From Desulfobacterales bacterium HSG2 (GTDB lineage: Bacteria > Desulfobacterota > Desulfobacteria > Desulfobacterales > 4be13): a stretch of 64,000 nucleotides of DNA. How positions within the stretch are numbered: position 1 is the first letter of the stretch; every line of letters begins with the position of its first letter. The DNA lies in assembly GCA_030378035.1 (NCBI GenBank), contig JAUCGI010000009.1:1-64000 (forward strand), written 5' to 3'. The translations under genes and the position numbers were made by a program. Below, piece after piece: positions 1,316 through 49,915 of the stretch. A model generated the notes under the pieces. The model was not told the DNA's origin and ran no database searches. It was given only the letters and a program-made list of their open reading frames with translations.

Positions 1316-1663
1316 TTGGACATGACCGCTTTTTTTGGCGGTCAGGAGCCTGAACTGGGAAATCTGACGGATACCATTTGCTCAGACAGTTGCCCTAATG
1401 TTGAAGTGAGAATTCATCAAATGATGGAAGAATGTTTTGAGTTAATTAGCGGTCCGTCTGCTATCGAAATTATTGCTGTTAATTTATCTGTTCGGGAACG
1501 TGATAAATTGAAAAAGCGATTCGGAGGCCGTCGCTGGAGAAAGCTCAAAGGTGTTGGCAGAGTCCGGTTCCCTGACGGAAATATCTATAAAACGGAAGTC
1601 CACTGGTATGAGGCACACGGAGTCGGGCGTCGAAAAATGAAAGTCAAACGTATTTTGGAATGA
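1316..1663 (+). CDS. hypothetical protein with an N-terminus borrowed from a wzy-like gene
   Basis: This 115-residue protein has an unrecognised, basic C-terminal half ending in EVHWYEAHGVGRRKMKVKRI, a pattern seen in small conserved hypothetical proteins. It overlaps the next gene by 4 bp (ATGA), so the two form a cassette. The first ~15 codons are odd: DNA at 1304-1358 is nearly identical to 3690-3742 inside the Wzy/WaaL-like gene, including TCTGGTAACGATTG and CAGGAGCCTGAACTGG. The annotated N-terminus is therefore a transplanted gene fragment. The authentic start is probably later, for example in the stretch before NVEVRIHQMMEECFEL. Function is unknown. Confidence 0.55.
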   Translation: MDMTAFFGGQEPELGNLTDTICSDSCPNVEVRIHQMMEECFELISGPSAIEIIAVNLSVRERDKLKKRFGGRRWRKLKGVGRVRFPDGNIYKTEVHWYEAHGVGRRKMKVKRILE

Positions 1664-1893
1664 GGATGCATATGAAATTTGCTATCTGCATATTGAGTGA
1701 AGGTTGCGATGATCTGGAAAGTCTGAAGGTTTATCGTATTCTTCCCGATGAGAAAGCAGGAAGGGCCGGCTGTCTGCGTGTTATTGACGAATCAGGCGAA
1801 GATTATCTTTATCCCACAGAGAAATTTGTCGTTGTGGAATTTTCAGATGAAACAGAGACAAGACTGATGGAGTCAATCGGTATGGCAGCCTGA
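1660..1893 (+). CDS. small conserved hypothetical protein (LPDE...RVIDESGEDYLYP motif)
   Basis: The 77-residue protein carries SLKVYRILPDEKA followed by RVIDESGEDYLYP. This motif is familiar from a widespread family of ~75-residue hypothetical proteins often found in two-gene cassettes beside other small proteins. Three in-frame ATGs are possible: 1660, 1666 and 1672. The last gives MKFAICILSEG, a natural beta-strand start. The 4-bp overlap with the preceding gene suggests co-translation. A toxin-antitoxin or immunity-like role is possible but not shown. Confidence 0.6.
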   Translation: MRMHMKFAICILSEGCDDLESLKVYRILPDEKAGRAGCLRVIDESGEDYLYPTEKFVVVEFSDETETRLMESIGMAA

Positions 1894-1932
1894 TGCATAA
1901 GCGGCTTCCCTCTGTAAAAAGGATAAAAACAA

Positions 1933-2073
1933 GTGGAACGACAGGCAAACAAAATAGACCGGGAATATGTTTCGTGGCGGATATCTGATTGGAAAAAAAG
2001 ATTGGATCAGCTCTGTTCCGAAATGACGATCTGGGCTGAGAATTTCGGGAAGGTTGAATTCGGAGGATGGTGA
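1933..2073 (+). CDS. possible small protein, 46 residues
   Basis: A GTG-initiated frame encodes a Trp-rich peptide with SWRISDWKKRLDQLCSEM and ends TGA at 2071. It lies between the 1660 cassette and the ATPase and reads like the helical N-terminus of a small accessory protein. A stop codon just upstream in the same frame limits any longer version. I do not recognise the family, and the ribosome site is weak. Confidence 0.35.
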   Translation: MERQANKIDREYVSWRISDWKKRLDQLCSEMTIWAENFGKVEFGGW

Positions 2074-2112
2074 CAAAAAAATGCCGAACATGGCATGGAT
2101 TATGAGGGGAAT

Positions 2113-3297
2113 ATGATCACTTCAATTCAGGTCAGTGGTTTCAAGTCGCTCCGCGACGTCGAAATTGAACTCGGCACCGTCAACGTGTTCATCGGAGCCA
2201 ACGGAAGCGGGAAAAGTAATATTCTGGAAGCCGTCGGTCTGTTGTCTTCCGCAGCTTCCGGCCGTGTGGACGATGAGGCGCTGATCCGTCGCGGCGTTCG
2301 TCCGGGCCTGCCCAGGCTCTATAAGTCATCGTTTAAGCACGGAAGGACCCGGCCGCACATCAGCCTCACGGCCAAAAACAGGAATGTGTCATACAGCGTC
2401 GCTCTGCTAAACCCTCTCAGAGACCCCAGGCCTTCATGGGAGTATAAGGCAGAAGAGTTGGCACTCGGTCAGGATCCGGTCGTCACACGGCGTGGCCGTG
2501 CCAACGGTGCCTACGACCCGACACGGGGGCTTGCCGCAGTGAGGGCGGTGGAACTTGGCCAGGATCACCCGGGTTCCCTGCTGCTGAACACACTCCGGGA
2601 CTATGCGATCTATTCACCCGGCACGAGCTTTCTGCGCGGCGTTGTTTCCGATCCGCAGACCAGGGATCCCGTGGGTCTTTCCGGAGGCGGACTGGCTTCG
2701 GCACTTCTGAAGTTGCAGAAACTGTCCGGGAAGGACGAGCGGATCGGGGCCGCACTGGAAGATGTGCTGTCCGCGTTGGACTGGGCGGAAAATTTTGACA
2801 TCAGTCCCAGCGCGGGCGAGCTGCTGTCGCCTTCCGTGCCGAGGCCCAGACACACTCTCCGGTTCAGGGACCGCCACATGCTGTCGGAGCGCAACACACT
2901 GACGGCTTACGATGCAAGCGAGGGCGCCCTCTATCTGCTGTTTGTGGCCGTTCTTGCGCTGTCACCTGCATCCCCGGCATGTCTGGCGGTCGACAATCTG
3001 GACCAGGCCCTGAACCCCCGTCTGCTGAAAAGACTGGTCGGGCTGCTCTGTGACTGGGTGCTGGAAAACGGGGCCGGACAGGTCCTCTGCACGGTCCACA
3101 ACCCCGCCGCGATTGACGGGTTGCTTCTGAGTGATGACAGGGCGCGCCTTTTTGCGGTGGATCGGAACAATTACGGCTGCACAACGGTCAGGCGGGTTGC
3201 CATGACACCCGAGCTGCTCAGTTTGTGCAAAAAAAAGGACTGGCCCTTGTCCCGCCTTTGGATGATGGGGCATATCGGAGGTGTGCCCAGTGTCTGA
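2113..3297 (+). CDS. AAA (AAA_21/OLD-like) ATPase
   Basis: The protein begins MITSIQVSGFKSLRDVEIEL, the standard SMC/OLD-type N-terminus. Walker A is GANGSGKSN at about residues 28-36. A C-terminal Walker B-like strand reads CLAVDNLDQALNPRL, with Asn after the Asp instead of the usual Glu. TVHNPA then supplies the switch histidine. A longer ATG exists at 2095, but 2113 gives the canonical start. The 3' end overlaps a GTG-initiated frame with a DUF4276/TOPRIM-like N-terminus (3290). ATPase plus TOPRIM-like effector pairs are common in anti-phage modules, but here the partner is broken. The ATPase itself looks intact. Confidence 0.8.
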   Translation: MITSIQVSGFKSLRDVEIELGTVNVFIGANGSGKSNILEAVGLLSSAASGRVDDEALIRRGVRPGLPRLYKSSFKHGRTRPHISLTAKNRNVSYSVALLNPLRDPRPSWEYKAEELALGQDPVVTRRGRANGAYDPTRGLAAVRAVELGQDHPGSLLLNTLRDYAIYSPGTSFLRGVVSDPQTRDPVGLSGGGLASALLKLQKLSGKDERIGAALEDVLSALDWAENFDISPSAGELLSPSVPRPRHTLRFRDRHMLSERNTLTAYDASEGALYLLFVAVLALSPASPACLAVDNLDQALNPRLLKRLVGLLCDWVLENGAGQVLCTVHNPAAIDGLLLSDDRARLFAVDRNNYGCTTVRRVAMTPELLSLCKKKDWPLSRLWMMGHIGGVPSV

Positions 3298-3512
3298 GTT
3301 GGAAATAGGTCTTGTTGTGGAGGGGCCGACAGATGTCCATGTCATACAGGCAAGTCTTGAACATTTGCTGGATACGCCCTTTGTGCTCAGAACCCTGTAG
3401 CCTGAAGTCCCCCTCGGAGAATTCGGCGGCGGCTGAGGCCGGCGTCTTCAGCGAAGCCGTGAACCAGGCTGTTCGTTTCCGACAGACGGGGAAACGATCA
3501 AAAAGGATGTGA
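3290..3512 (+). pseudogene. DUF4276/TOPRIM-like partner of the ATPase, nonsense-truncated
   Basis: The GTG at 3290 overlaps the ATPase stop and starts SELEIGLVVEGPTDVHVIQ, a TOPRIM-like/DUF4276 opening in which the Glu and Asp of VEGPTD would be metal ligands. The frame hits TAG at 3398 in the context RTL*PEVPLGE. A CAG-to-TAG change would explain it, because L-Q-P-E is expected. A second stop follows after GEFGGG, and the remaining ~100 bp show no continuing homology. The effector half of the pair is therefore inactivated. Confidence 0.6.
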
Positions 3513-3543
3513 TGAATGTCGAAAAAAGTATTTTTTAACACCT

Positions 3544-4941
3544 ATGCCAAGTAACCGGGATGTGAACTTCAAATTTAAACCCCCAGCTTACATCTCATAT
3601 ATCACGGCTTGCAGTTTGGCCGCTTTGCTCATCATAACGCCTCTCGTGAAGGGAGCGGTTCAGGAATGGGCCGTGAGCCTGATTCATCTGGTAACGATTG
3701 TGGGTATGACCGCTTTTTTGGCAGACAGGAGCCTGAACTGGAATTGGAAGTGGATCAGAACCCCTGTTGATCAGCCGATTCTTCTGCTGGTCGTTCTGTC
3801 GGTTCTCTCTTCTCTCTTTTCGGTTCATCCTCAGACCAGCCTGTGGGCGACGGTTCTGCTGCTCAACTATGTGCTGCTTTTTTACCTGACGATTCATACA
3901 GTAAAGACCCGTGCCCGGCTCAGGCGTCTGATTCACATTATCATCACCATGGGGGTTTTTCTGTCAGTGGTGGGACTGCTCAAACGATTTGATGCCAATC
4001 CTTTTCCGTGGTGGGAGTATCATAATTCCGGGTATCCCCCTGAATTTCTCTCTTCCACATATATAAACCACAACCATTTTGCAGGGTATGCGGAAATGAG
4101 TATCTCTGTGATGCTCGGATTCTTCCTGACCGGTTTCAGCGGCGGTAAACGGGTTCTGATGATCTATATGACAGGGATCATGGTTGGGGCACTGGTGCTT
4201 TCCCTCTCAAGAGGCGGATGGATTGCATTTGGTCTGATGCTCTCTTTCATGGCGTTTGCATTGCTGACCAATCGTCATTTTGAGCGCAAGAGATTTCTCA
4301 TCTCCCTGGTCGGCGGTCTGGTGTTCGTCATCTTCATCATTATGGGAAGCACCCCGGTGGTGGAGCGGATTCTGACTTTGCCACAAAAAGAGGACGACCC
4401 CAGCTTTAACAGTCGTCTGGAGGTATGGGCGGGGATCAGGAAAATGATACACGACTACCCTCTGCTCGGAACAGGCCCGGGAACATTCGGCACGGCTTTC
4501 ACGAGATATCAGCCTCCGGGACTTCGCAGCCATTTTACCATGGCCCATAATGATTACCTCCATTTTACAGCGGAACTCGGACTGATGCTGATCCCGATTC
4601 TGATCTGGATGATCATCGCCCTTTTCAGAGAGGGGTTCAGGAAGCTTGAAAATCTCAGCCGTCTGGTGCGGGGGACAACCCTGGGGGCCATGTCCGGTGT
4701 CTTCGCCATCCTTGTTCACAGTGCGGCGGATTTCAATCTCCATATTCCGGCCAATGCCCTTCTGTTTACCGTTCTGGCGGCTGTTGTGGCGGCACCGCTT
4801 CCGAAAAGCCGCAAGCGATATGGGAGAAAGGAGAGGTCAGACGATATCAGGAAGACGGAATATGTTCTTCAGGATCGGACAGAGGAATTAAGAGAGCAAC
4901 TGAAAAAAGTGCCGATTCTGACCGGAAAACGACGGGACTGA
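3544..4941 (+). CDS. O-antigen polymerase/ligase family (Wzy/WaaL) membrane protein
   Basis: The 465-residue protein has about 10-12 hydrophobic segments and the Wzy_C signature. One segment is VLSLSRGGWIAFGLML, and it is followed by a large periplasmic loop containing RLEVWAGIRKMIHDYPLLGTGPG and AHNDYLHFTAELG. This loop type is shared by O-antigen ligases and polymerases in the inner membrane. The soluble basic tail (res ~415-465) is rich in Arg/Glu. It is an intact gene set apart from the main glycan locus. Fragments of the same gene are scattered at 1304-1358, 6924-6957 and 9650-9700. Confidence 0.85.
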   Translation: MPSNRDVNFKFKPPAYISYITACSLAALLIITPLVKGAVQEWAVSLIHLVTIVGMTAFLADRSLNWNWKWIRTPVDQPILLLVVLSVLSSLFSVHPQTSLWATVLLLNYVLLFYLTIHTVKTRARLRRLIHIIITMGVFLSVVGLLKRFDANPFPWWEYHNSGYPPEFLSSTYINHNHFAGYAEMSISVMLGFFLTGFSGGKRVLMIYMTGIMVGALVLSLSRGGWIAFGLMLSFMAFALLTNRHFERKRFLISLVGGLVFVIFIIMGSTPVVERILTLPQKEDDPSFNSRLEVWAGIRKMIHDYPLLGTGPGTFGTAFTRYQPPGLRSHFTMAHNDYLHFTAELGLMLIPILIWMIIALFREGFRKLENLSRLVRGTTLGAMSGVFAILVHSAADFNLHIPANALLFTVLAAVVAAPLPKSRKRYGRKERSDDIRKTEYVLQDRTEELREQLKKVPILTGKRRD

Positions 4942-41380: not shown

Positions 41381-42326
41381 GAATCTTTGTCATAAGCCTC
41401 CAACCAAAGGCAATGCGCTCGGAAACCGGAAAGGAATCCGACTAGCTGAACCGGGATGGCAGCAACTTTGCCTCATGGTATCGTTACCTCTCCCAGGAGC
41501 ATCAGGACAGAATATTTCAATTGACCGAACAACTGCGAGATATCATCCCGGGTTTTTATGCCTTCAAACTTGAGCAGGCCGGCAGACACAGGATACTCAG
41601 AGTCGGCTTCCGCAGTGAAAACAAAAAAAGCTGATTATAACGGATTTAGGGAGCCCGTGAACTTGAACTCATACCTGACTGCCTGTAAATGAATGTTCCG
41701 GGTTCTGACGGATTTTGTGGTCCGAATCTGTTTTTTTAACGCGGAGGACGCAGAGGACGCAGAGGGCTGCGGAGTCTCCGCGGTTCTCTGCGTCCTCTGC
41801 GTCCTCTGCGTCCTCTGCGTCCTCTGCGTCCTCTGCGTCCTCCGCGTTTTTCTTACCGTCTGAAATAACACAGAACCCACAAAATCCGTCAGAATCAGGA
41901 ATGTTCAGGTTCACGGGCAGGTTCACAGAGCTCCCCTAAATCCGTTACAATCAGAGAAAAAGCGCACCGGTCTATTTTGATTTTGAGAGAATCTCTGACG
42001 GAGAGCGCGTGATGATTGTTCTTTACTCCCTTCTGTCAGGCTTGCGGGATCTCGGACACACTGTTTTTCTTGATGAACCGGAAAACGATGTGGCACTGCC
42101 GGAAATTCAGCCCTGGCTCGTGGAACTCGGCGACATCTGCGGAGATGAGTTACCGCAGGCGATACTGATCAGTCATCACCCGGAACTGACAGATTACCTC
42201 GGCCCGGAATGCGGCAAATGGATTGAGCGTGATGCTCTCGGGCCGGCACGGGTAAGAAATATGCCCGCAAAAATTGACAAAGGACTTAGGCTTTCTGAAC
42301 AGATCGCCAGAGGGTGGACGGAATGA
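41381..42326 (+). pseudogene. partial copy of the MITE-interrupted ATPase
   Basis: It matches 38562-39436, including the inserted element, so the copy was made after insertion. It begins RIFVISLQPKAMRSETGKES and has a TAG just after Asp in that stretch. After the element it reads the same C-terminal half and ends KIDKGLRLSEQIARGWTE, which is probably the authentic C-terminus replaced in copy 1. No start region is present. Confidence 0.9.
41631..41954. mobile_element. MITE-like element, copy 6 (in duplicated ATPase fragment)
   Basis: The same termini and target repeats (AAAAAAAG/AGAAAAAG) as copy 5. It is 324 bp because the CTCTGCGTC minisatellite has four extra units (about 36 bp). Confidence 0.9.
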
Positions 42327-43578: not shown

Positions 43579-43975
43579 AAAGTGTTTCATCGGGATGATC
43601 TGACCGCGTGGGTCAGCAGCGCCGAACAGTCCTTCAAACTTGACGTACAGGGAAAGAACGGACTGTTTTCTTACAAGCTGCTTGTATCGCACCACCCTGA
43701 CATCAGAAAGCAGCGAATCGAACATGAACAGCTTCTCCTGGACAACAGACCGCTGTTCGAGTTTACGCAGGGCGATGTGCAGCTTTATCACGATGACCAC
43801 ACAGCCGGGCCGAAATATTCCTTTGACCAGTCAGTTTCGGGGCTGGCAACCATTGTTGAGAGACAGGATAACAAAAAACTGACGGAGTTCAAAAAACGGA
43901 TGAAGAGAATCTTTGTCATAAGCCTCCGACCAAAGGCAATGCGCTCGGAAACCGGAAAGGAATCCGACTAGCTGA
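43579..43975 (+). pseudogene. internal fragment of the AAA ATPase
   Basis: It matches 38237-38635 (FHRDDLTAWVSSAEQSFKLD onwards) and ends at the same TAG after Asp as the 41381 copy, with shared substitutions. No Walker A and no C-terminus are present. This third copy overlaps the second in content, so the two probably derive from one donor. Confidence 0.85.
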
Positions 43976-44044: not shown

Positions 44045-44512
44045 ATGAGAAATCAGATTGGACTCACTAAAGAACAGATTGATCAGTGCAAATTAATCTG
44101 GAAATTTTTGATGGGCGGAGATTCGGATACAGGACATTTTGATGATGCAAAACTTGAAGGAATGAGGATCAGACTTGACACATCCGAAGCCCACGAAGAT
44201 AAATCAAGAACGAGGTTCAATGAAGACAGAAACATTGTCATCTTAGGCGCTGATGCCTTTCCCGGAACTGACATCACTGATCCCAACTCCCAGTTATCAG
44301 AATCAGCGTGTTTGATCCATGAACTTTCTCATGCGCAAAGATATTATCTCGGTTTCAGACGCCCGTGCAGTCCGTCCGCCGATTATCATCCTGATGAGGC
44401 GGAAACAAGCCTGCATGCCTCTTTTCATTCCGTACTGTACCCCAGTGACCGATTATATCTTGTTGAAGATGCTCAGAAACATATCAGATCATGGCTCAGA
44501 GAAAAAGGATGA
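44045..44512 (+). CDS. HELSH-motif metalloprotease-like protein
   Basis: From ATG 44045 the 155-residue protein MRNQIGLTKEQIDQCKLIWK has CLIHELSHAQRYYLGFRRPC (HExxH zinc motif) and HPDEAETSLHASFHS, which could give the third ligand Glu. It has no signal peptide, so it is cytoplasmic. A short zincin of this kind, next to a gene with a nuclease-like core, suggests an accessory cassette. Start choice is supported by the lack of homology in the upstream fusion (NMPCPKQG…). Confidence 0.55.
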   Translation: MRNQIGLTKEQIDQCKLIWKFLMGGDSDTGHFDDAKLEGMRIRLDTSEAHEDKSRTRFNEDRNIVILGADAFPGTDITDPNSQLSESACLIHELSHAQRYYLGFRRPCSPSADYHPDEAETSLHASFHSVLYPSDRLYLVEDAQKHIRSWLREKG

Positions 44513-44520
44513 AGAATGTC

Positions 44521-45399
44521 ATGACTCAGACAGAGAGGAACAGAAAAATGAAAGTGATGCCCACAGGCGTAATTTTTATCGGAATATGCAAAGTTCGTAC
44601 CCCCAGATGTGTTGCCGCGATCGGAGGGCCTGTCACCGCAGTGTGGACGGCCCCGGGCCGTGTTCAGGTGAATGCCTGCAAACCGTGCCTGGAGGAACAG
44701 ATTCGTCAGGGGAGATGGATCGTGGAAGGCGCGAGGGTGAGAGGGATGAGACAGCAGGCTCTTGTTGATATTGCCGTCTATTCTCAGGATAACGAGCTTC
44801 AGCTCATTGCTGAAATCAGAACCCGGTTGGGGATATCTTATGACTGGGCAGAAGAAGCGTATTCCAAAGTCATGGACGCTCCCTTTCTCTCCGAGGCCCC
44901 CTATTTTTTGCTGGCACTGCCGGATTGTTTCCATCTCTGGCAGCGGGAGAGCACACGCGGAAGTCGGGATTCTCCGTATTTCGCTGACGAACAACCCCGA
45001 TATTTTTTGGAACCGTATCTGACAGCACTTTCCCTGAAGTTGGAGGACATCAGTGTTTCAGACCCTTGTGAATTCAGAGACGAACCTTATTCCGTCATGG
45101 AAAAGCATTTTCATTTTCAGCATATCGTCGGAGAATGGCTGGCTGCCGTCATTAACTCGTCTTCCGAAAAGAATTTGCCCGACTTTCTGATCCGGTCCGG
45201 ACTCTATGAGAAAATTGTTCACGGACATGTTGAAGCGGAGGCTGTCATTTCTCCCGAACCAGATGTCGTCGCTGAGGGCGAACGGGCCAGAAAGAAAGGC
45301 AAACTTCTCTCTGAAAACCCATACAATATCAACACAGAACAGCATAAGTATGAGGCTTGGCGTATGGGATGGAAGGATACCAATCAGGTGTTGGAGTAG
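44521..45399 (+). CDS. predicted nuclease-like protein with Rmf/CrpP-like C-terminal tail
   Basis: The ~292-residue protein begins near ATG 44521, 8 bp after the HELSH gene. Residues ~55-80 (VQVNACKPCLEEQIRQGRWI) carry a CxxC, and ~90-115 give QQALVDIAVYSQDNELQLIA then EIRTR, resembling a PD-(D/E)XK core (D...E-x-R). The C-terminus GERARKKGKLLSENPYNINT followed by WRMGWKD matches the ribosome modulation factor/CrpP pattern G...A..G....NPY......WR.GW. I know no named protein with this combination. The role is open. Confidence 0.55.
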   Translation: MTQTERNRKMKVMPTGVIFIGICKVRTPRCVAAIGGPVTAVWTAPGRVQVNACKPCLEEQIRQGRWIVEGARVRGMRQQALVDIAVYSQDNELQLIAEIRTRLGISYDWAEEAYSKVMDAPFLSEAPYFLLALPDCFHLWQRESTRGSRDSPYFADEQPRYFLEPYLTALSLKLEDISVSDPCEFRDEPYSVMEKHFHFQHIVGEWLAAVINSSSEKNLPDFLIRSGLYEKIVHGHVEAEAVISPEPDVVAEGERARKKGKLLSENPYNINTEQHKYEAWRMGWKDTNQVLE

Positions 45400-45619: not shown

Positions 45620-45777
45620 GTGGATTCCGGGTCAACACTGAAAAAATGTCCCATTTTTTCAGTGTTGCCCGGAATGACAGGTGGAAAAAAATGTCCCATT
45701 TTTTCAGTGTTGCCCGGAATGACAGGTGGAAAAAAATGTCCCATTTTTTCAGTGTTGCCCGGAATGACAGGTGGAGA
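45620..45777. repeat. three tandem 45-bp repeats with REP-like palindrome
   Basis: The unit AATGTCCCATTTTTTCAGTG followed by TTGCCCGGAATGACAGGTGG occurs at ~45645, 45690 and 45735 (45-bp period). Upstream, GTGGATTCCGGGTCAACACTG is the complement arm, so the array is a hairpin expanded on one side. The same GGATTCCGGGTC/CCCGGAATGAC ends lie inside MITE copies 3 and 4 and at 46437-46530. Confidence 0.9.
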
Positions 45778-45893
45778 TGGGACACACCCGAAAAATATGA
45801 GATTGATTTCTCTTTTATGCAGGAATATGGGAATCCTGACAATCTTGCCGATTTTCAATCGCTCAATTTAGGTTTTATAAAACGGAGATAACA

Positions 45894-46211
45894 ATGATAC
45901 AGGAAATCACCATATCCGGCAATTCGGAAATTCCGATCAGACCGCTGATCGAATCGGCTATCCGATCCGAATTGCGCACACTGGATGTGGCAATTCACAG
46001 AACAAACCAGCGATTAATTTCTTTTCAGGAAAAATATGATATGAGTTCCGATGAGTTTGAAAATCGTTTTGAAACAGGCGATATAAGTGAATCATTGGAT
46101 TTTATCGAATGGTTGGGAGAAATAAAAACCCTGGCACTTCTGAATGCCCACAGACAGACTCTCAGAGGGGTGAATTTTGCTGATAAAAGAGTATTTTCAG
46201 GAGATTGCTGA
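45894..46211 (+). CDS. antitoxin-like partner of DUF6516-type protein
   Basis: The 105-residue protein MIQEITISGNSEIPIRPLIE then SAIRSELRTLDVAIHRTNQR with a helical coiled region (LISFQEKYDMSSDEFENRFE) has the layout of the small helical proteins that precede DUF6516-type genes. AACGGAGATAACA is the ribosome site. Its end overlaps a TTG-initiated DUF6516-like frame, which is itself disrupted. Confidence 0.65.
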   Translation: MIQEITISGNSEIPIRPLIESAIRSELRTLDVAIHRTNQRLISFQEKYDMSSDEFENRFETGDISESLDFIEWLGEIKTLALLNAHRQTLRGVNFADKRVFSGDC

Positions 46212-46320
46212 CATTGTCGATAATCATCCCGCTGTTCAGTCTGAAGTCTCTGGTTTTCCAATAACTCTGTTCTGCACTTTCGGGAATATGCTGATGTGCA
46301 GAATGATATTGTTCTTTACA
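46177..46320 (+). pseudogene. DUF6516-like toxin, frameshifted and cut by a repeat
   Basis: It starts at TTG 46177, MLIKEYFQEIADIVDNHPAV. The expected strands are lost after an indel near 46245-46265, and another frame gives VLHFREYADVQNDIVLYK up to 46321. There the sequence becomes the 30-bp AAATTGCAAATTTG array in the same frame. The rest of the domain is missing. The pattern matches the toxin half of a two-gene cassette. Confidence 0.6.
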
Positions 46321-46715
46321 AACAAATTGCAAATTTGTTCTACATTTACAAACAAATTGCAAATTTGTTCTACATTTACAAACAGATTGCAAATTTGTTC
46401 TACATTTATGAACAAATTCTGAGTACAGGACAAAAAGTGGATTCCGGGTCGGAAATGCCGGGAATCCCCTTCGACAGGCTCAGGGAACGATTCCCGGCAT
46501 TTCCGCCCGGAATGACAGTGTGTCGGTTTTCAGGCATCCGAAGCTGTACACAGAAACAAATTGCAAATTTGTTCTACATTTATGAACAAATTCTGAGTGC
46601 GGGACAAAAAGTGGATTCCGGGTCGGAAATGCCGGGAATCCCCTTCGACAGGCTCAGGGAACGATTCCCGGCATTTCCGCCCGGAATGACAGTGTGCTGG
46701 TTTTCAGACACCTCA
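46316..46715. repeat. 30-bp array plus 174-bp tandem duplication
   Basis: Three copies of the 30-bp TTACAAACAAATTGC unit start at 46316, 46346 and 46376. From 46411 a 174-bp unit (AACAAATTCTGAGT, then GTGGATTCCGGGTCGGAAAT and a complementary CCGCCCGGAATGACAG) is repeated once at 46585. The unit is itself a hairpin (CGGAAATGCCGGGAAT / ATTCCCGGCATTTCCG). Confidence 0.9.
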
Positions 46716-48745: not shown

Positions 48746-49915
48746 ATGATAAATGATTCTGTGACAACTTTTTTGTCGCGATTCCGCCTCAGACACATAT
48801 TTCTTGTCTTACTGACAATCGTCGTTTCTTCCTCCTGTTCCATGAGGTCAACGACGATTCAGACTGAGATTATTGTCCAAAATGCCGAAAATATTGTAAT
48901 ACCTGAGCCGGATATAACAGACGAGGAACCTGAAATCATTGTCGAATATCCGGGACCTGTGGAAGTCAGTAACCCGGAACCCGAGGAGGTCAGTAATCCG
49001 GGACTCCTGGAAGTCAGTAACCCGGAACCCGAGGAGGTCAGTAATCCGGGACTCCTGGAAGTCAGTAACCCGGAACCCGAGGAGGTCAGTAATCCGGGAC
49101 TCCTGGAAGTCAGTAACCCGGAATCCGAGGAGGTCGGTAATCCGGGACTCCTGGAAGTCAGTAACCCGGAACCCGAGGAAGTCAGTAATCCGGGACCTGT
49201 GGAAGTCAGTAACCCGGAACTCCTGGAAGTCAGTAACCCGGAACTCCTGGAAGTCAGTAACCCGGAACCCGTGGAAGTCAGTAACCCGGAACTCCTGGAA
49301 GTCAGTAATCCTATAAACGCGGCTACTGATAATTCCTCAGTCGCTGACCATCGATTTTATTCGAGATACTCGAAAAAATTGGGCATACGTCTTGACGGCA
49401 CGGAAAATAAGGCATTAATCAGGTCAATTGGCCGATGGTTGCGCGTTCCTTTCAAATGGGGAGGATGCTCAAAGCGCGGGGTTGACTGTTCCTGTTTCGT
49501 CAAACTGGTTTATAAAGATGTCTATGGCATCTCATTAAATCGGACGTCAAGGAATATCGTTCATAAGAATCTGAATTCCGTGGAGAAACGGGAATTACGG
49601 GAAGGAGATATTATCTCTTTTAAAATTGGCGGGGACAGGATTTCACACATCGGCATCTATCTGAAAGATAATAAATTTGCCCATGTCAGCCGCAGCAAAG
49701 GGGTAAGGATCAGCAGTCTCACCCGAAAATATTACAGGGAAAGATTTTTCTCAGCCGGGCGTGTGAAAAGAGGTTTTAAAAGAGTTTATGTAGCCAAAAA
49801 AACATCCAAGCCGCCTGCGCCTGCACCGAATTTAGAACAAACTGTAAAACTGGGTGAATTAACTGTCCATGAAACCATAGACAGCAACGTCATAACGGTT
49901 TCCACCAGTATGTGA
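48746..49915 (+). CDS. NlpC/P60 lipoprotein with a 15-copy EVSNPxx repeat linker
   Basis: The 389-residue protein has a lipoprotein-type signal (FLVLLTIVVSSSCS, Cys ~30). An extended Pro/Glu-rich region follows, with 15 copies of a 7-residue unit (EVSNPEP, EVSNPGL or EVSNPEL). The C-terminal NlpC/P60 domain has VPFKWGGCSKRGVDCSCFVK (catalytic Cys), ISHIGIYLKDNKFAHVSRSK (His residues) and RERFFSAGRV. The 21-bp DNA unit repeats from 48960 to 49311. It would hydrolyse peptidoglycan cross-links from an outer-membrane anchor. Confidence 0.85.
   Translation: MINDSVTTFLSRFRLRHIFLVLLTIVVSSSCSMRSTTIQTEIIVQNAENIVIPEPDITDEEPEIIVEYPGPVEVSNPEPEEVSNPGLLEVSNPEPEEVSNPGLLEVSNPEPEEVSNPGLLEVSNPESEEVGNPGLLEVSNPEPEEVSNPGPVEVSNPELLEVSNPELLEVSNPEPVEVSNPELLEVSNPINAATDNSSVADHRFYSRYSKKLGIRLDGTENKALIRSIGRWLRVPFKWGGCSKRGVDCSCFVKLVYKDVYGISLNRTSRNIVHKNLNSVEKRELREGDIISFKIGGDRISHIGIYLKDNKFAHVSRSKGVRISSLTRKYYRERFFSAGRVKRGFKRVYVAKKTSKPPAPAPNLEQTVKLGELTVHETIDSNVITVSTSM

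Follow-up and report, generated by a model that had tools for sequence, protein, structure and literature searches.

A small HELSH zincin gene and its ribbon/PD-(D/E)XK-like partner gene: a patchily distributed two-gene unit in Desulfobacterales bacterium HSG2, related genomes and a viral contig

Two adjoining genes of Desulfobacterales bacterium HSG2 raise the question of whether a small metalloprotease-like protein and its nuclease-like neighbor form a single system, and of what kind. They lie in the window analyzed here, a 64,000 nt stretch (contig JAUCGI010000009.1, positions 1–64,000). A preliminary description had proposed a two-component accessory system, with an Rmf-like tail on the second protein as part of it. 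Features are listed in Table 1.

Table 1. Features of the gene pair and of related loci. Positions are those of the window unless another contig or locus is named.
Feature	Position	Strand	Remark
HELSH zincin gene, 155 aa	44045..44512	+	ATG start; frame open from GTG 43988
HExxH motif H92-ELS-H96, putative zinc ligands and catalytic Glu	44318..44332	+	residues invariant in homologs
D117-E-A-E120, candidate third zinc ligand 3' of HExxH, gluzincin-like spacing	44393..44404	+	conservation
Gene for ribbon, PD-(D/E)XK-like core and Rmf-like tail	44548..45399	+	likeliest start; ORF open from ATG 44491
Four-Cys ribbon-like N-terminal domain, C23, C30, C53, C56	44548..44745	+	alignments A3, A6
PD-(D/E)XK-like core, D83 (44767), E98 (44812), R100 (44818) at lysine position	44761..45255	+	tblastn, A1, A7
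Rmf/CrpP-like tail, NPY...W..GW	45271..45378	+	weak profile matches; present in C207, absent from other homologs
C207 ribbon-nuclease paralog, Rmf-like tail and further 150-aa unknown C-terminal domain	G000:C207:25325-27120 (L002 518-2313)	minus	
Core + PIN_12 pairs	L008 2974-4049, L038 2498-3558, L039 1293-2365, L040 2471-3537, L049 2249-3315, L050 2400-3457		

Searches that start from either gene return the same pair, in that the zincin search found genomes G105 and G183 and the ribbon search found viral contig L020. Among 291 genomes of the class, intact zincin copies are present elsewhere in 2 of 290, which are G105 and G183, members of other families of the same order. L020 (IMGVR_UViG_3300007102_000160) is the one matching contig in a ribbon search of viral contigs, and further searches of viral contigs gave this same contig alone. 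In G105, a 254-aa protein with ribbon and PD-(D/E)XK core is encoded 4 bp downstream of the zincin. In G183, the zincin is followed with a 17 nt overlap by a 137-aa protein that has the same ribbon and a truncated or degenerate core. In L020, the gene of a HELSHAERF zincin overlaps the gene of a 226-aa ribbon and core protein by 25 nt. The order zincin, then ribbon protein, is found at all four intact loci of the close zincin family (window, G105, G183 and L020), with gaps of 4–35 bp or overlaps of 17–25 nt, and the nuclease core is found at three of them. The HELSH-type neighbor looked for beside homologs is thus present in G105, G183 and L020, and an adjoining zincin is kept at four of five intact ribbon-protein loci (the exception is C207, a paralog in the window genome), as the proposed two-gene accessory unit predicts. 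The zincin and the ribbon protein are a real, patchily distributed two-gene unit.

The unit is rare. A zincin profile search found four examples in 389 other genomes of the order, two of them decayed, and none in 394 other genomes of the phylum. Genomes G001 and G003, from the same family as the window genome, have broken remnants of one or the other gene. Single-protein searches of wider genome contigs, in which bacteria outside the phylum are poorly sampled, gave no match, and a phage collection has no match to the pair. Pfam, NCBIfam, PADLOC and PHROGs contain no significant match to either gene, and nothing meaningful came out of PDB sequence searches, whether by single protein or by profile. 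Because the distribution is rare and patchy with decayed remnants, it suggests a mobile accessory module that moves among distantly related bacteria and a virus. The upstream neighbors differ from locus to locus, so that no fixed sensor gene is evident. Both genes show an excess of third-codon-position changes in comparisons between genomes, a pattern of purifying selection. The zincin is 50–61% identical to homologs elsewhere (G105 61%, viral contig 51%, G183 50%) and the second protein 29–56%; on these alignments both genes and their similarities are real and not a matter of chance.

The HELSH metalloprotease-like gene of the preliminary description is confirmed as an open reading frame that begins at the point where the homologs align. 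H92, E93 and H96 are invariant across five homologs, including a distant protein from Sinorhizobium; the HExxH motif in G183 reads HEFAH. The segment DEAE-x-SLHAS is invariant in the four close homologs and DEA is kept in the fifth, and one of the residues D117-E-A-E120 presumably serves as a metal ligand. A comparison of the zincin with Pfam, including Peptidase_M78 (ImmA/IrrE), gives no family at E ≤ 10. The AlphaFold2 model, built from a two-sequence alignment, has a pLDDT of 40.9 and is too poor for use.

The reading frame of the second gene has ATG codons at 44491, 44509, 44521 and 44548. ATG 44548 is the likelier start because the purine tract AGAGAGGAAC is just upstream and because the G105 homolog starts (MQVMPTG) at the same residue. 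Residues are numbered here from ATG 44521, the start taken earlier (292 aa), so that ATG 44548 is M10. The two genes are adjacent with any of these starts, but the 8-bp spacing first reported holds only from ATG 44521, and from the likelier start it is 35 bp. The N-terminal domain has the CxxC that had been pointed out (C53 and C56), but this is not alone: C23 and C30 are also invariant in homologs, which makes a four-Cys ribbon. All four Cys together with P14, G21, T27, T39, E59 and W66 are conserved in every row of alignments A3 and A6. The ribbon head is the part of the second protein that is always linked to a zincin.

The middle part of the second protein is supported as PD-(D/E)XK-like by comparison with related sequences. 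Residues 83–242 match 155–156 aa proteins of cyanobacterial plasmids, with E values down to 4e-10 (tblastn; alignment A1), that carry WDLSV...VVEVKxK...WA...APYFLM..PDxFYLW. A profile made from the cyanobacterial cores and G105 (A7) finds the window core at E 1.9e-31 and also picks up additional standalone cores from this order. The nuclease-like D...E-x-R core proposed previously is present as D83 and E98-x-R100. Homologs in G105, the viral contig and cyanobacteria have the canonical D...ExK (EVKNK, EVKRR, EVKTK), and two homologs have weak Pfam matches at the motif that are under the cutoff, P0004 to HSDR_N_2 (E 0.0067) and P0014 to DUF234 (E 0.049). The lysine is replaced in both tailed paralogs, with EIR (ExR) in the window and EIT (ExT) in C207, and the K to R change probably impairs the core of the window copy. 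A similarity to Sp-DndD (E 0.009) was dropped; it covers little sequence, at the PD-(D/E)XK motif, and no Dnd genes are seen adjoining the pair. The AlphaFold2 model of the second protein (pLDDT 36.1, two-sequence alignment) is likewise too poor for use, and the secondary structure order b-b-a-b-b is only suggestive.

The C-terminus of the second protein has the pattern G...A..G...NPY...Y..W..GW. The window tail matches Pfam RMF with E=0.01 and 16.4 bits vs a cutoff of 27.9, and NCBIfam CrpP_rel with E=6.5e-4 and 19.6 bits vs a cutoff of 35. The C207 paralog (P0007, 420 aa), the one other copy of the second gene in the window genome, has no adjoining zincin; its tail gives E 0.008 with RMF and E 8e-4 with Rmf_CrpP. 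When the whole genome is scanned in six frames with RMF, the C207 tail ranks first and the window tail second. The G, A, G, NPY, Y, W and GW of the tail are kept between the paralogs at an overall identity of 41–44%. The Rmf/CrpP-like C-terminus thus stands as a motif and as the two best RMF matches in the genome, but its scores are under all curated cutoffs; the resemblance is supported weakly but specifically. The tail may perhaps direct the second protein to RNA or the ribosome. None of the other three homologs of the pair (G105, G183 and the viral contig) has it, so that it is a lineage-specific add-on and lies outside the zincin-ribbon system proper. Its proposed role as a defining component is not upheld, as it is limited to the two paralogs of this genome, one of them without a zincin. 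This uncharacterized pair is better described as zincin plus ribbon-(PD-(D/E)XK) protein than as zincin plus Rmf-tailed nuclease.

The window and C207 paralogs show fast yet constrained evolution, with a dN/dS of 0.54 (bootstrap 95% 0.38–0.76). Positive selection between them was suggested by low third-position divergence and was rejected, as the whole-protein bootstrap interval stays below 1. The gene that overlaps and follows C207 weakly matches HEPN (HEPN_Toprim_N, E 7e-4), with RxxxxH present as RDWYAH.

The surroundings of the pair are rich in repeats and gene fragments (window approximately 41.6–46.7 kb). The first coding unit after the pair, at 45894–46211, is a TumA-like antitoxin gene (NCBIfam E 1.5e-7). 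On visual inspection, the TumE toxin frame that follows (from 46177) appears to be cut off by a repeat array. Short tandem repeat arrays are seen at 45640–45790, 41635–41939, 46296–46430 and 48900–49300, and an NlpC/P60 gene at 48746–49915 contains in-frame repeats (EVSNPxLLEVSNPEP). Upstream, 42009–42326 and 43582–43971 appear to be parts of a single broken AAA_21-type ATPase, in which the C-terminal part precedes the middle part; only 42009–42326 has a Pfam match, and it is weak. The ATPase was rejected as a partner, being present as fragments only and absent beside the other intact loci read. In G001 an Hsp70-like gene lies upstream of the broken zincin; seen at one locus only, it was likewise set aside as a functional partner. 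On the viral contig there is a terminase large subunit gene (phrog_15, E 1.9e-73) and, near it, directly upstream of the pair and on the same strand, a gene at 1411–4326 for a 971-aa protein with HD-CE, NB-ARC and TPR domains, which is the STAND sensor architecture. On pSymA of Sinorhizobium meliloti (L007 1249–3309, NZ_CP021805), a DndB-like gene (PF14072, E 7e-15) is directly followed by a HELSH zincin; the record has no annotation at this locus.

The core is also found as a standalone gene. Wherever such a gene has intact flanks, an overlapping PIN_12 gene comes next. These loci are in Tolypothrix, Nostoc, Gloeothece, Hymenobacter, G211 and G215; the PIN_12 assignment comes from Pfam for the four on plasmids and from clear sequence likeness for G211 and G215. 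The core of Chroococcidiopsis and that of G000:C108 are followed by a truncated PIN gene, and none follows the standalone core of G183:C155 or, in the window, position 45399. The decayed pair of G000:C108 (L051 1665–2615) has a RelB/RelE-like toxin-antitoxin pair inserted in its PIN gene. Core and PIN_12 make up a toxin-antitoxin-like pair, apparently unnamed, with the nuclease-fold partner in the antitoxin position. The core thus recurs as one member of two-gene cassettes, the other being a PIN, HEPN-like or zincin gene; a limited literature search found no description of it in this role.

The observed adjacency, co-inheritance, patchy distribution, mobility, domain make-up and conserved putative active-site residues can be brought together in one model. 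The zincin and its ribbon/PD-(D/E)XK partner may be a small mobile module in which a protease controls a nuclease, with a role in conflict and defense or in addiction. An active zincin would be docked by the four-Cys ribbon and would cleave either its partner or a shared inhibitor; the processing of a partner is plausible. Cleavage would switch on an active nuclease under stress or phage attack, and the module would then work like known protease-activated nucleases. This reading is tentative, at somewhat less than an even chance. It is favored by the zincin-ribbon adjacency at four of four loci, the patchiness, the remnants, the mobile and conflict context, the PIN_12 and HEPN-like cassettes, the constrained evolution and the precedent of protease-gated nucleases. 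Counting against it are the truncated core of G183, C207 without a zincin, the Arg at the lysine position in the window, the lack of a PADLOC family and the varying upstream neighbors. A more specific form is improbable: an undescribed class of mobile conflict module in which a PD-(D/E)XK nuclease, tethered by the ribbon, is gated by the small standalone zincin and has here been re-aimed at the ribosome by the Rmf-like tail, with loss of the catalytic lysine.

Other explanations draw on much of the same evidence. The pair is two-gene, tightly packed, mobile and often decayed, which would also fit a toxin and its antidote, an addiction module whose toxin would be the nuclease-like protein, kept in check by a zincin that degrades or clips it. 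The toxin-antitoxin-like overlapping pairs of the core with PIN_12 point in the same direction, and Zn peptidases of COG2856 are known from TA-like loci (PMC2701414). However, in the PIN pairs the core occupies the usual position of the antitoxin and not that of the toxin, and the C207 paralog is intact although it has no zincin; this explanation is considered unlikely. The lysine could be viewed differently. It is missing from both Rmf-tailed paralogs while the untailed homologs keep ExK, as expected if the core here is a dead nuclease and the protein an adaptor, whose ribbon would recruit the zincin and whose tail would carry the complex to RNA or the ribosome, the site of action of the zincin or of a further partner. 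The rank of the tails in the RMF scan and the retention of their motif residues despite the low identity agree with an adaptor. The cutoffs they miss, the C207 tail with no zincin beside it, and the status of Rmf-like tails in fusions as unproven ribosome binders do not, and an adaptor is distinctly unlikely.

The lack of an HTH match in either protein, and of any Pfam match of the zincin at E ≤ 10, Peptidase_M78 included, weighs against a regulatory role, in which the zincin would act as an ImmA/IrrE-like protease to inactivate a regulator, its substrate being a DNA-binding ribbon protein. This role is highly improbable, even with the HExxH and downstream acidic EAE-type motif of the zincin, the mobile-element context and the COG2856 precedent (PMC2701414) in its favor. 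The most improbable explanation is that two unrelated cargo genes travel together by chance and are decaying. The remnants in G001 and G003 and the repeats and fragments around the window pair are what it would predict, but the genes adjoin at four loci, across different families and a virus, and the flanks change from one to the next; the codon-position pattern is one of purifying selection. The protease-controlled module is retained as the preferred reading.

In comparison with known systems, the PD-(D/E)XK + PIN_12 pairs have a homologous core in a two-gene cassette that is often plasmid-borne, but they are without ribbon and Rmf tail and have a PIN partner in place of the zincin. Rmf is a small standalone protein. 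The window protein has the C-terminal G..A..G...NPY...W..GW of Rmf/CrpP (PF04957; NF041886, NF041856), whereas the tail here is on a protein of 283–292 aa, is under all cutoffs and is not conserved in its family. The zincin resembles ImmA/IrrE (COG2856, Peptidase_M78) as a small HExxH metallopeptidase in mobile two-gene settings, but it has no detectable sequence similarity to that family and no HTH partner. The pSymA zincin is a distant homolog with HELSH (34% identity); its partner, however, is the DndB-like protein and not a ribbon-nuclease. The ribbon domain and the zincin are absent from the protein-family libraries searched, and naming them would make the system findable. It is compact, with two genes in approximately 1.4 kb, and the active site is intact in the G105 and viral-contig homologs.

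The closest parallel in logic is with bacterial immunity, in Hachiman (HamMAB), AVAST (Avs1b) and the caspase-nuclease system (canu), where pro-nucleases are gated by a partner protease; the nuclease has a metallo-beta-lactamase (MBL) fold and the protease is trypsin-like or a caspase (PMC12799240). The likeness is in the adjacent protease and nuclease genes, patchily acquired and repeatedly co-inherited, and in the proteolytic switching proposed here. The pair differs in that its PD-(D/E)XK-like core bears a ribbon head, its zincin is small and standalone, and it has no known sensor gene; Pfam searches matched no MBL nuclease, trypsin-like or caspase family. It would therefore be analogous to the protease-gated nucleases in its working, neither homologous to them nor a member of their group. 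If a metalloprotease is indeed paired here with a different nuclease fold, this would suggest that the logic of protease gating arose more than once.
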